A stretch of DNA of 64,000 nucleotides from NCBI RefSeq assembly GCF_021559775.1, contig NZ_CP056047.1:248001-312000 (forward strand). Direction: 5' to 3'. Within the stretch, counting starts at the first letter, position 1, and every line of letters starts with the position of its first letter. This DNA is from Gillisella vitis (GTDB lineage Bacteria; Pseudomonadota; Alphaproteobacteria; Rhizobiales; Rhizobiaceae). The notes beneath the pieces are model-generated. The model made no database searches. It was given only the letters and a program-made list of their open reading frames with translations, and was not told the DNA's origin. Shown here one piece after another: positions 53,391-56,704 of the stretch. The translations under genes and the position numbers were made by a program.

Positions 53391-54272
53391 TTATAAAAAG
53401 ATACCGCGATCCTGATCGACCCGCTCGCGTAGGTAATCCACCACGGTGCGAATGCGGGCCAGATCGCGCAGGCTCTCATGATAGGTGGTCCAATAGGCGC
53501 GGTGCAAGGTGATGTCGGGCAGAATGCGGACCAGGTCACGATGCTGTCGCGCGATGTAGCTGTGCAAAATACCGATGCCAGCGCCTGCCAGCACCGCTTC
53601 CGTCTGGCCGATGGCGGAGGAAATCTCAAAACTGGCGTTCCAGTTGCGCATGATTTCGCCGGTAAAATTCAGCGATGGCGTGAAGATCAGGTCTTCCACA
53701 TAGCCGATGCGGTGATGATCCTTGAGGGCTTCCACCGTCTCCGGCAACCCGTGGCGCTCAATATACTGGCGGGAGGCATAAAGCGCCAAGCTGTAATCGG
53801 TCAGATGCGCCGAGACGAGGCGCCCCTGATCGGGCCGCTCCAGTGTTACGGCAATATCGGCCTCGCGTTGCGACAGCGAAAACGAGCGTGGCACCGGCAC
53901 CAGCTGGATTTTCAGTTCCGGGTGTCGCTCGATCAATCCGCCAAGCCGGGAGGCCAGAAAGAACACTCCAAACCCATCCGGCGCACCAATGCGCACCGTG
54001 CCTGCCACCTTGGCATCGGTGCGGCCAAGGCGGGCTTGGACTTCCAGCATTTCGGTTTCCATCCGCTCGGCAGAAGTGAGAAACGTCTCGCCCTCGGCGG
54101 TCAGTTCGCAGCCATTGGTGCGGCGAATGAACAGCCGTGTTTTCAGCGCATCTTCCAGCGCCGTCAAACGGCGTGAGAGCGTGGCGTGGTTCAGCCCCAA
54201 CCGTTTTGAGGCGGCCAGAATTTGCCCCGTGCGGGCAATGGCCAGAAAAATGCGAACGTCATCCCAATTCAT
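53391..54272 (-). CDS. LysR-family regulator divergent from mmsA
   Basis: 293 residues from the ATG giving MNWDDVRIFLAIARTGQILAASKRLGLNHATLSRRLTALEDALKTRLFIRRTNGCELTAEGE. A slightly earlier ATG (54284) is possible. The effector domain shows VRIGAPDGFGVFFLASRLGGLIERHPELKIQLVPVPRSFSLSQREADIAV. It lies back to back with mmsA around a 9-base inverted repeat, so control of methylmalonate-semialdehyde dehydrogenase is likely. OsmC follows it on the same strand. Confidence 0.88.
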   Translation of the reverse strand: MNWDDVRIFLAIARTGQILAASKRLGLNHATLSRRLTALEDALKTRLFIRRTNGCELTAEGETFLTSAERMETEMLEVQARLGRTDAKVAGTVRIGAPDGFGVFFLASRLGGLIERHPELKIQLVPVPRSFSLSQREADIAVTLERPDQGRLVSAHLTDYSLALYASRQYIERHGLPETVEALKDHHRIGYVEDLIFTPSLNFTGEIMRNWNASFEISSAIGQTEAVLAGAGIGILHSYIARQHRDLVRILPDITLHRAYWTTYHESLRDLARIRTVVDYLRERVDQDRGIFL

Positions 54273-54287
54273 AGCAGCATCCATTTA

Positions 54288-54326
54288 TGCACAACGGATG
54301 CGTAAATCATCGCGTTGCGTTGTGCA
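54288..54326. promoter_or_regulatory. Inverted repeat in the lysR-mmsA intergenic region
   Basis: TGCACAACG (54288-54296) and CGTTGTGCA (54318-54326) are perfect 9-base arms 21 bases apart, between the LysR start and the mmsA start at 54375. Candidate site for the LysR protein. Confidence 0.5.
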
Positions 54327-54374
54327 AATTAAAGCGCGATAGTGGCCTATCAAAAACACTCAGGAGGATCACCC

Positions 54375-55871
54375 ATGTATCAGATCGGGCATTTTATTGG
54401 CGGCAAGGCCGTGGCTGGCACTTCTGGTCGCAAGCAGCCGATTTTCAATCCGGCCACGGGCGATATTCAGGGCGAAGTGGCTCTGGCCAGCGCAGACGAG
54501 CTGAATGCAGCGGTGGCAGATGCCAAGGCCGCCCAGCCAAAATGGGCCGCCACCAATCCGCAGCGCCGCGCCCGCGTGTTCATGAAATTCGTGGAATTGC
54601 TCAATACCCATATGGATGAGCTGGCCGAAATGCTGTCGCGCGAGCATGGCAAGACCATTGAAGACGCCAAGGGCGATATCGTCCGTGGTCTGGAAGTTTG
54701 TGAATTCGTCATCGGCATTCCGCATCTGTCGAAGAGCGAGTTTACCGAAGGCGCAGGCCCGAACATTGATATGTATTCGATCCGTCAGGCCGTGGGCATC
54801 GGCGCTGGCATTACCCCGTTCAATTTCCCGGCGATGATTCCGATGTGGATGTTTGCCCCGGCCATCGCTTGCGGCAATGCCTTTATCCTCAAGCCTTCCG
54901 AGCGCGATCCGTCCGTGCCGATGCGCCTCGCCGAATTGATGATCGAAGCGGGCCTGCCTGCTGGCATTCTCAACGTCGTCAATGGCGACAAATCAGCTGT
55001 CGATGGCCTGCTGACTCATCCCGATATCGGTGCAATTTCCTTCGTGGGCTCCACCCCGATTGCCCGTTACGTTTATGGCACGGCAGCAGCCAACGGCAAG
55101 CGCGCCCAATGCTTTGGCGGCGCCAAGAACCACATGATCATCATGCCCGATGCCGATCTGGATCAGGCCGCCAATGCGCTGATGGGCGCAGGCTATGGCT
55201 CGGCTGGGGAACGCTGCATGGCGATTTCCGTGGCCGTTCCTGTTGGTGATGAAACCGCCGACCGGTTGATCGCCAAGCTGACCCCGATGATCGAGAGCCT
55301 TCGCATCGGACCCTATACCGATGACAAGGCTGACATGGGCCCTGTCATTACCAAGGAAGCGCGCGATCGTATTCTGGGCCTGATTGATGGCGGCGTGGAC
55401 GCCGGTGCCAAGCTGGTCGTCGATGGCCGAGATTTCAAGCTTCAGGGCTATGAAAACGGCAATTTTGTCGGCGGCTGCCTGTTCGACAACGTGACCCCTG
55501 ATATGGACATCTACAAGACCGAGATTTTTGGACCGGTTCTTTCGGTGGTGCGCGCCAAAAACTATGAGGACGCCCTCGATCTGCCGATGAAGCATGAATA
55601 TGGCAATGGCGTTGCGATCTATACCCGCGATGGCGATGCGGCCCGTGATTTTGCCAGCCGCATCAATATCGGCATGGTCGGCATCAATGTGCCGATTCCG
55701 GTGCCGCTGGCCTATCACTCCTTCGGTGGCTGGAAGGCGTCTTCCTTCGGCGACCTCAACCAGCATGGCACGGACTCGATCAAGTTCTGGACCCGCACCA
55801 AGACCGTTACCAGCCGCTGGCCCTCCGGCATTAAGGACGGCGCTGAATTCGTTATGCCGACGATGAAATGA
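54375..55871 (+). CDS. mmsA: Methylmalonate-semialdehyde dehydrogenase (CoA-acylating)
   Basis: 498 residues, the family's usual length, from the ATG with AGGAGG upstream. Oxidises (methyl)malonate semialdehyde from valine, beta-alanine or inositol breakdown to propionyl- or acetyl-CoA. ITPFNFPAMIPMWMFAPAIACGNAFILKPSERDPS and GAISFVGSTPIARYVY form the NAD site, and YGSAGERCMAISVAV (near 280) holds the catalytic Cys. The C-terminus is TSRWPSGIKDGAEFVMPTMK. A second, diverged copy of the last 15 codons lies 107 bases downstream. Divergent LysR is its likely regulator. No mmsB or iol genes flank it. Confidence 0.95.
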   Translation: MYQIGHFIGGKAVAGTSGRKQPIFNPATGDIQGEVALASADELNAAVADAKAAQPKWAATNPQRRARVFMKFVELLNTHMDELAEMLSREHGKTIEDAKGDIVRGLEVCEFVIGIPHLSKSEFTEGAGPNIDMYSIRQAVGIGAGITPFNFPAMIPMWMFAPAIACGNAFILKPSERDPSVPMRLAELMIEAGLPAGILNVVNGDKSAVDGLLTHPDIGAISFVGSTPIARYVYGTAAANGKRAQCFGGAKNHMIIMPDADLDQAANALMGAGYGSAGERCMAISVAVPVGDETADRLIAKLTPMIESLRIGPYTDDKADMGPVITKEARDRILGLIDGGVDAGAKLVVDGRDFKLQGYENGNFVGGCLFDNVTPDMDIYKTEIFGPVLSVVRAKNYEDALDLPMKHEYGNGVAIYTRDGDAARDFASRINIGMVGINVPIPVPLAYHSFGGWKASSFGDLNQHGTDSIKFWTRTKTVTSRWPSGIKDGAEFVMPTMK

Positions 55872-55933
55872 TGCCTGCGGTTTTTCTGTCTGCGCGTCCT
55901 CGCGGCACTCCGTTTGCTGCGGTTGCGCGGGCT

Positions 55934-55978
55934 GGCATCAAAGACGGTGCCGAGTTCGTCATGCCAACGATGAAGTGA
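55934..55978 (+). pseudogene. Remnant of a second mmsA 3' end
   Basis: These 45 bases encode GIKDGAEFVMPTMK and a stop, identical at protein level to the end of the intact mmsA at 55827-55871. The DNA differs at eight positions, all third codon positions. It is in another frame from mmsA and has no start or ribosome site. It looks like the tail of an older or foreign mmsA left behind when the gene was replaced or duplicated. Confidence 0.85.
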
Positions 55979-56010
55979 TGACGTAAGACGTCGTACCAAA
56001 AATTATCACC

Positions 56011-56040
56011 AAGGCGGGTCTCCAGCGGCCCGCCTTTTTT
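56011..56040 (+). terminator. Rho-independent terminator after mmsA and its remnant
   Basis: AAGGCGGG / CCCGCCTT stem of 8 base pairs with a 10-base loop, followed by a T run. Located 33 bases after the remnant stop, the position expected for the original mmsA. Confidence 0.88.
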
Positions 56041-56233
56041 CGTGATAAAAAGCCAAAATCAACACTCCAAGCATGAAAATCTTTTCTGGAGAAACACGCT
56101 CAAAAAATGTTAATTTGGAATTGTTCAAAAGTACAAAAGCCATTATATATGCCGATATGGACGGACAAAATTGGCGCTTTGCCAAGGACCGCCAAGCGGC
56201 TAAGGTTCGCTGGACCAGCTTAAGGAGTGGCGC

Positions 56234-56704
56234 ATGCGCTTGACGAAGCAGACCAATTACGCGGTACGCATTCTGATGTATTGCGCGGCGAACAAGGACC
56301 ACCTGAGCCGTATTCCGGAAATTGCCAAGGCCTATGGTGTCTCCGAACTGTTCCTGTTCAAAATCCTTCAGCCGCTCAACAAGGCGGGTCTGGTGGAAAC
56401 CGTGCGTGGCCGCAATGGCGGCGTGCGCCTGGGCCGTGCGCCTGAAAAGATCAGCCTGTTTGACGTGGTCAAGGTGACGGAAGACAGTTTTGCGATGGCT
56501 GAATGCTTCGAGGACGATGGCGAGGTCGATTGCCCGTTGATCGACAGCTGCGGCCTGAATTCGGCGCTGCGCAAGGCGCTCAACGCTTTCTTTGCGGTGC
56601 TGGCGGAATATTCCATCGATGATCTGGTCAAGGCCCGCCCGCAGATCAATTTTCTGCTGGGTATCGAGGATCTGCCCCGTCTGGCAGCTGCACCGGCTGC
56701 CTGA
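56234..56704 (+). CDS. rirA: Iron-responsive Rrf2-family regulator RirA
   Basis: 156 residues. MRLTKQTNYAVRILMYCAANKDHLSRIPEIAKAYGVSELFLFKILQPLNKAGLVETVRGRNGGVRLGR is the winged helix of RirA and is nearly invariant in rhizobia. The cysteines in AECFEDDGEVDCPLIDSCGL (near 91-106) hold the iron-sulfur cluster that lets it repress iron-uptake genes in iron-replete cells. Monocistronic with its own terminator. The A/T-rich 5' region was searched for an IRO box and no clear one was seen. Confidence 0.95.
   Translation: MRLTKQTNYAVRILMYCAANKDHLSRIPEIAKAYGVSELFLFKILQPLNKAGLVETVRGRNGGVRLGRAPEKISLFDVVKVTEDSFAMAECFEDDGEVDCPLIDSCGLNSALRKALNAFFAVLAEYSIDDLVKARPQINFLLGIEDLPRLAAAPAA

Follow-up and report, generated by a model that had tools for sequence, protein, structure and literature searches.

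Here, we report that the gene mmsA in the analysed window, a stretch of 64,000 nucleotides from Gillisella vitis (contig NZ_CP056047.1), is followed by a second copy of its own 3' end. We consider it probable, at roughly 0.58, that this second tail is the resident mmsA 3' end, which was displaced by a site-specific mobile unit of 107 bp. Such a unit would be made up of its own version of the gene end, a guide arm (about 8-14 nt, complementary to the target across the left joint, hereafter q), a short T-rich run and a hairpin of some 45 nt, and its size across the family of units would be about 100-124 bp. It would have entered inside the mmsA coding sequence, 42 nt before the stop codon. The gene end of the unit would then complete the reading frame, and the old end would remain beyond the hairpin, on its right side, and decay. 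The features of the locus are as follows.

54375..55871, + strand: mmsA, CoA-acylating methylmalonate-semialdehyde dehydrogenase, the intact target gene (open reading frame; TIGR01722, 655.7 bits against a cut-off of 448.5)
55827..55933, + strand: proposed inserted unit of 107 bp, comprising gene end, guide arm and hairpin (period 107; without counterpart in G012, G015, G033, G083, G085 and G086; flank beyond the right copy with 3/378 differences from G015)
55826/55827 and 55933/55934: left joint (q) and right joint of the proposed unit
55827..55871, + strand: present coding end of mmsA, proposed to have arrived with the unit (7/42 differences from L009, the right copy having 1/42)
55869..55880, + strand: putative guide arm TGATGCCTGCGG, whose first 7 bases pair with 55934-55940 and which folds with a 7-bp outer stem
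55881..55887, + strand: short T-rich stretch (from the sequence and the 25-sequence alignment A1)
55888..55932, + strand: conserved hairpin that forms the core of model R1 (match to R1 at 55871-55932, 64.1 bits, from a member of the 25 sequences on which the model was trained; pair covariation over 131 distinct elements)
55934..55978, + strand: putative relic, the displaced resident end of mmsA (from comparison with element-free relatives)
56011..56040, + strand: probable original transcription terminator 3' of the resident end (inverted repeat followed by a T run, by eye; also 3' of mmsA in L009-L011)

The last 14 codons of mmsA with the stop codon (55827-55871) and the second copy (55934-55978) each read GIKDGAEFVMPTMK followed by a stop. 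As the first-pass annotation of this DNA had stated, the same protein sequence is encoded by a 45-base repeat with eight differences, every one of them synonymous and at a third codon position, and our recount in the sequence gave the same figures. The eight differences are not specific to adenines, towards which the changes made by a diversity-generating retroelement are directed. The pair is missing from the output of a repeat finder, and by eye the two tails have no exact 9-base run in common, which is the seed length. The same layout was observed in G063, a genome of the same species, where nine of the differing codons are synonymous and none is otherwise. The gene after mmsA is rirA (NF008886). 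On the other side of mmsA, the 300 bases 5' of the gene (54075-54374) differ from L009-L011 at 201-218 positions in an ungapped comparison, which indels could account for.

The 62 bases between the two tails, to which the first-pass annotation had pointed as worth a check, are occupied by a hairpin element that recurs across genomes. A search with a 13-base hairpin arm revealed the same layout at ilvC (L156) and glyS (L160, L208 and L209), and a covariance model, R1, was built from 25 elements (alignment A1). Matches to R1 were present in 115 of 394 genomes of the family (54 of 109 genera), as well as in 25 of 397 genomes of an order sample (17 of 142 genera, with eleven family labels including that of the window). 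Copy number was 2 in the window's own genome and 1-5 per positive genome (E 0.001, strict filters), and a search of the own genome with the spacer gave one real match. Within the genus, the full-length mmsA gene end plus spacer unit was found in 13 of 63 genomes and, cut by a contig end, in a fourteenth, G027, whose contig (C11, L026) breaks inside the unit, as expected if an assembler halts at tandem copies. At E 0.01, 27 of the 63 genomes matched, those beyond the full units through short stretches. The mmsA loci of the genus contain 2-4 successive gene ends with a period of 100-109, and arrays in general reach up to 4 gene ends with a period of 100-124. An exact-pattern scan of 84,980 named species genomes returned 10 stretches from records titled Agrobacterium, Allorhizobium, Rhizobium or Ciceribacter, on which basis we take the family to be Rhizobiaceae. 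In the family sample (394 genomes), other genera too contain longer relatives of the unit.

The hairpin itself covaries. Over 131 distinct elements, 8 of the 12 pairs were altered on both sides and 95.7% of the cells pair; double-sided changes were seen in 141 cells, compared with 42.7 in shuffles, and the signal was destroyed by sliding the partners, although these counts lean towards the model because the alignment was fitted to R1. The variable pairs are mainly Watson-Crick and seldom G-U, a pattern compatible with selection on RNA and equally with selection on a palindrome in DNA. In one order-sample genome (L324, G490:C10, 1501-1881), four hairpin matches are spaced 92, 92 and 138 bases apart with no right-hand copy of a gene end.

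Elements were located at the ends of mmsA, ilvC, glyS, hisF and citramalate synthase genes, as well as at tRNAs. The gene names are based on one profile-tested example per gene: that of ilvC exceeded its cut-off, and hisF, citramalate synthase and glyS were the best matches of fragments that scored below the cut-offs. Target names for the remaining loci were taken from the gene-end sequence. Duplicated flanks, with 28-65 nt shared and a score more than 4 points above the best of 100 shuffles, were present at 52 of the 61 element positions scored, which came from 60 regions fetched around the family R1 matches, among the matches listed. The nine other places were read singly. Three of them (L271, L289 and L291) are at tRNA-Ile genes beside tRNA-Ala; L271 and L289 share 10-11 bases on the right side and L291 none beyond chance. 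The elements of these three loci lie between the two tRNA genes, perhaps in rRNA operon spacers, and in L289 a further, weaker match follows tRNA-Ala. The left sides of L266 and L303 are masked, with tRNA-like ends by eye and none by ARAGORN, L269 is a weak glyS case, and L293 at ilvC shares 12 bases. Only L283 and L311, both ilvC elements without a right copy, look like an element without an extra end. In the order sample, 17 of 21 places, which partly repeat family genomes already scored, had both-sided ends of hisF, glyS, citramalate synthase or tRNA-Gln; the exceptions at the element tested were L324, L329, L335 and L339, of which L329 and L339 are in arrays beside tRNA-Gln.

In assignable loci, the orientation of the element is constant: the gene interior lies to the left of the GCGTCC arm of the hairpin and the extra end to its right, both for 3' ends (mmsA, ilvC and tRNA) and for 5' ends (glyS, hisF and citramalate synthase). 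Because the interior is always on the left and the extra end on the right, the target gene is complete. The end of the target gene is regenerated at the assignable loci, as it would be by insertion of a unit. At 30 mmsA loci, the distance from the stop codon (inclusive) to the next gene end is 45-67 nt, which leaves no room for an integrase gene.

The differences between intact and extra ends carry a strong coding mark. In 78 pairs from mmsA, glyS and hisF (one per locus, the extra end being the last copy at mmsA loci with several), 283 differences were counted, 76% of them at third positions, and the differing codons were synonymous in 202 cases and not in 55 (78.6% synonymous). With neutral change throughout, the simulated synonymous share was 21.8%; with one coding and one neutral copy it was 35.3%, and the highest value in 100 simulations reached 42.4%. 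Because the observed share lies so far above the 35.3%, both gene ends seem, until recently, to have coded for protein. The same set of pairs agrees with the earlier proposal that the two tails diverged under selection at the protein level.

A different part of the element is informative at glyS. The coding parts of 25 glyS loci are 92% identical on average, whereas the linker of 10-29 nt between the start codon and the hairpin is 36% identical to the sequence beyond the right copy. It is uncopied on the right in 23 of the 25 loci; the exceptions are an array locus, L275 (12/12), and L279 (8/10). Of the eleven loci whose coding parts are 95% identical or more, L275 alone shows a copied linker, and in L208, L286, L290 and L299 it is uncopied despite an identical coding part. 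Since the linker is so rarely copied beside near-identical coding parts, it mostly arrived with the hairpin.

Comparison with relatives suggests which of the two mmsA ends is resident. The right tail of the window has 1/42 differences from the element-free G012 (L009) and 3/42 from G015 (L011), and the intact left tail has 7/42 from each of them; the flank beyond the right tail differs from G015 as little as listed above. The first-pass annotation had held that the old tail was left behind between the new stop codon and the original terminator, and the greater similarity of the right copy to element-free tails speaks for this part of its proposal. Its authoring model had also regarded presence of the relic in all close relatives as an argument against that proposal; the relic is present in G063 and absent from G012, G015, G033, G083, G085 and G086. 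In another comparison, G082 (L098) and G025 (L017) are identical over the 48 nt left of q and over the 70 nt that follow the right end, with 3/42 differences in the left end and 1/42 in the right. Compared with G069 (L110), both ends of L098 are equally distant, at 2/42 each. Among 13 element-bearing mmsA loci compared at third positions with their five nearest element-free relatives, the right end was nearer in 9, farther in 3 and equal in 1 (p 0.035), L093 having been dropped after inspection showed a left-type tail, and L014 (unit-like sequence after the stop codon) and L026 (contig end) having been kept out of the element-free set, as they were in the pooled comparison and in that of the 150 nt left of q. 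When mmsA loci were pooled, divergence of the left end exceeded that of the preceding 84 nt where the gene bodies diverged by less than 10%, with no excess at 10-13%; right ends were also raised (0.085, 0.072 and 0.123, compared with 0.058, 0.047 and 0.107 in element-free pairs). The mmsA tails of near genomes are mosaic. As a separate observation, the mmsA gene of G086 (L093) has 33/1452 differences from G033 in its body, yet its tail differs at 7/42 positions and about 30 nt after the stop codon are unlike, with the element absent; this tail may be either a tail patch or the trace of a lost unit.

The own genome contains its second element at hisF (G000:C1:3436593-3436652). The left end of this gene has 10/44 differences from the element-free G083 and the right end 4/44, with 13/150 in the 150 nt left of q. 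Taken together, the sequence evidence that the right end is resident at mmsA and hisF is moderate. In G063, hisF has no element; its end is identical to the left end of the own-genome locus (0/44 differences) and has 6/44 differences from the right one. This end (L342) joins a left-type gene end to the other type of flank; because its flank belongs to the other type, we read it as a hybrid, suggesting loss of the element by recombination between the two ends, although in the reverse reading the left type might be the resident one. Neither an excised form nor a new jump was seen in the genomes compared.

The 5' bases of the element tend to complement the target across q. Examples are the hisF arm GGACGGCC with the target GGC/CGTCC (the slash marks q), the glyS arm CCCGCATGC with GCATGC/GGG, the ilvC arm CGATCCACGG with CCGTG/GATCG and the tRNA-Gln arm GGGCGGTAG with CTACC/GCCC. 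In 67 loci with a readable joint, the longest stretch of reverse complementarity between arm and target at q was 8.24 on average, compared with 4.43 in 1902 control draws; matches of at least 8 were found in 47 of the 67 loci and in 15 of the 1902 draws, and matches of 6 or less in 12 of the 67. At a small number of array loci, L264, L265, L290, L308 and L309 among them, the sequence left of q belongs to the element before. At mmsA, arms fit their own targets better than those of other loci: own upstream pairs scored 8.32 and pairs with other loci 5.93, and none of 2000 permutations reached the observed mean (37 loci), in a test that ignores relatedness, near relatives sharing both arm and target. 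No signal of own-target fit was detected at glyS (187/300), hisF (51/300) or ilvC (300/300, L265 skipped), where the upstream bases show little or no variation. These patterns suggest that the arm acts as a guide. The arm of the window, TGATGCCTGCGG, pairs with the start of the right-hand end and not with the bases left of q, giving a guide score of 5 at q; as the half of the arm that faces the bases left of q is mismatched, the window copy may no longer be able to re-target.

If units are indeed inserted at q, joining would be carried out by a nuclease or recombinase encoded elsewhere and acting in trans, possibly on single-stranded DNA, and tandem arrays could arise by repeated insertion or by slippage. 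A more general model is offered tentatively, as somewhat less probable than not: protein-free units might find conserved ends of genes and tRNAs by 8-14 nt of base pairing across the joint, be moved in trans by a host or phage enzyme on the folded strand, and be harmless through the working gene end that they carry. No association with Y1 transposase (PF01797), the obvious candidate, was found when both family samples were taken as the same 394 genomes: it occurs in 32 of them, including 13 of the 115 carriers (9.3 expected), is absent from 102 of the 115 and has no copy in the own genome. This lack of a linked enzyme and the mismatched half of the arm in the window speak against unit insertion, and the comparison with L110, the G063 hisF end and the raised right ends shift some weight from it to plain recombination.

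Among other explanations, an unlikely one is that the element had a rare origin and that ordinary homologous recombination, acting between related genes, has been its sole means of spread since. Since the flanks differ, the right crossover of such an exchange must fall in the shared gene end, which leaves the tail of the recipient on the right, and both the synonymous differences and the uncopied glyS linker are thereby accounted for. Over the 150 nt left of q, the window sequence is nearer to G086 (3/150 differences) than it is over the gene body (98/1440), tails are mosaic in near genomes and the pooled evidence for an edge at q is only moderate, all of which agree with this explanation. On the other hand, the 48 nt left of q are without any difference between L098 and L017, and homologous spread explains neither how one hairpin came to be common to unrelated gene ends and tRNAs nor why the arm is complementary across q for each target type. 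Tandem duplication by replication slippage at a hairpin beside the gene end, followed by conversion between the copies, appears very unlikely. Palindromes favour slippage, and arrays of up to 4 gene ends with their regular period would be expected of it, whereas single-unit loci end in a gene end and then the other flank, with no second hairpin, and slippage would leave unexplained that several gene families share one hairpin and that both ends carry the coding mark.

Transposition of a 60-bp hairpin with a long target-site duplication of 45-65 bp is highly improbable, although flanks are duplicated, some pairs are identical over 43-46 nt (L208, L278, L290, L299, L305 and L317) and the linker is also copied at L275 and L279. 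Because the ends differ mostly synonymously (0.786 of differing codons, compared with 0.353 expected) and the glyS linker is mostly uncopied on the right (23 of 25 loci, even beside an identical coding part), the duplicated ends are not a target-site duplication. By the same evidence, the duplication of target bases on both sides that typifies MITEs was not observed (36% identity in the glyS linker and 92% in the coding part, two of the 25 loci excepted, with the synonymous bias). Even less credit can be given to the proposal of the first-pass annotation that an mmsA from a related strain took the place of the entire resident gene and spared its old tail. The right copy does resemble the resident tail, but the body of mmsA has 33-137 differences in 1452 among eight near genomes (G000, G063, G012, G033, G015, G083, G085 and G086) and 89/1452 within the species of the window, so the 8% divergence from the neighbour is ordinary for the group. 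Import of the whole gene, which we had suspected from 8% in the gene against 0.8%, was dropped on the table of divergence for all pairs, and that part of the earlier proposal is unsupported. As a general explanation it is contradicted, the same layout being found at many genes and genera, while a longer import at the window locus alone is possible.

The displaced-end reading has parallels in known systems. Phages and ICEs integrate into the 3' ends of genes or tRNAs and regenerate the end, as e14 and phage 21 do in icd. Like them, the proposed unit carries a synonymously different gene end, displaces the resident one and has tRNA 3' ends among its targets; unlike them, it has about 100-124 bp and no room for an integrase gene, 5' gene ends are also used, and a complementary arm spans the joint. 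Integron gene cassettes are small units that end in a folded site and are found in arrays, all of which the unit resembles, but its targets are ordinary genes. REPs are treated as usually high-copy (PMC6006769, PMC3733652) and carry a tetranucleotide guide, GT[AG]G, at the foot of the hairpin (PMC6006769). A hairpin with a guide sequence 5' of it is shared with REP/RAYT and IS200/IS605 single-strand systems as outlined there (PMC6006769, PMC3733652), whereas the guide of our unit is 8-14 nt long, target-specific and not GT[AG]G, matches number 1-5 per positive genome, and a Y1 transposase is not associated. By eye, no conserved GT[AG]G columns were present beside the hairpin in the 25 sequences of A1. 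Short, non-coding, palindromic and dispersed, the unit is also similar to MITEs and to small palindromic repeats such as CGTC REPs (PMC3733652), RIME and RPE, but what is duplicated here is a gene end once coding on both sides, and the targets are fixed gene ends. According to PMC3715440, ICEBs1 uses Bacillus mmsA as a secondary site, which we take as a coincidence.

Searches of existing collections returned little. An Rfam search of positions 54300-56700 gave four matches, all below gathering scores; the spacer had no match in plasmid and phage collections, and two exact hairpin patterns had none in IMG/VR. Short matches to a 36-nt hairpin query turned up in 64 plasmid and 6 phage records; of two Sinorhizobium plasmid matches inspected, one had a weak R1 match and the other none, and by eye neither had duplicated flanks. 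A 15-mer of the right arm of the hairpin, with one mismatch allowed, was about as common as its reversed control. Among the matches listed from open-licence papers, no description of such gene-end units was found.

If the displaced-end reading is true, very small site-specific mobile units would exist that choose their targets by complementarity and keep the host genes intact by means of the gene end they carry. They would form a new class of mobile element and point to an enzyme with guide-directed joining activity, and they would account for puzzling partial gene duplications whose differences are all synonymous. As both targets and guides are readable from the sequence, these ideas are directly testable.
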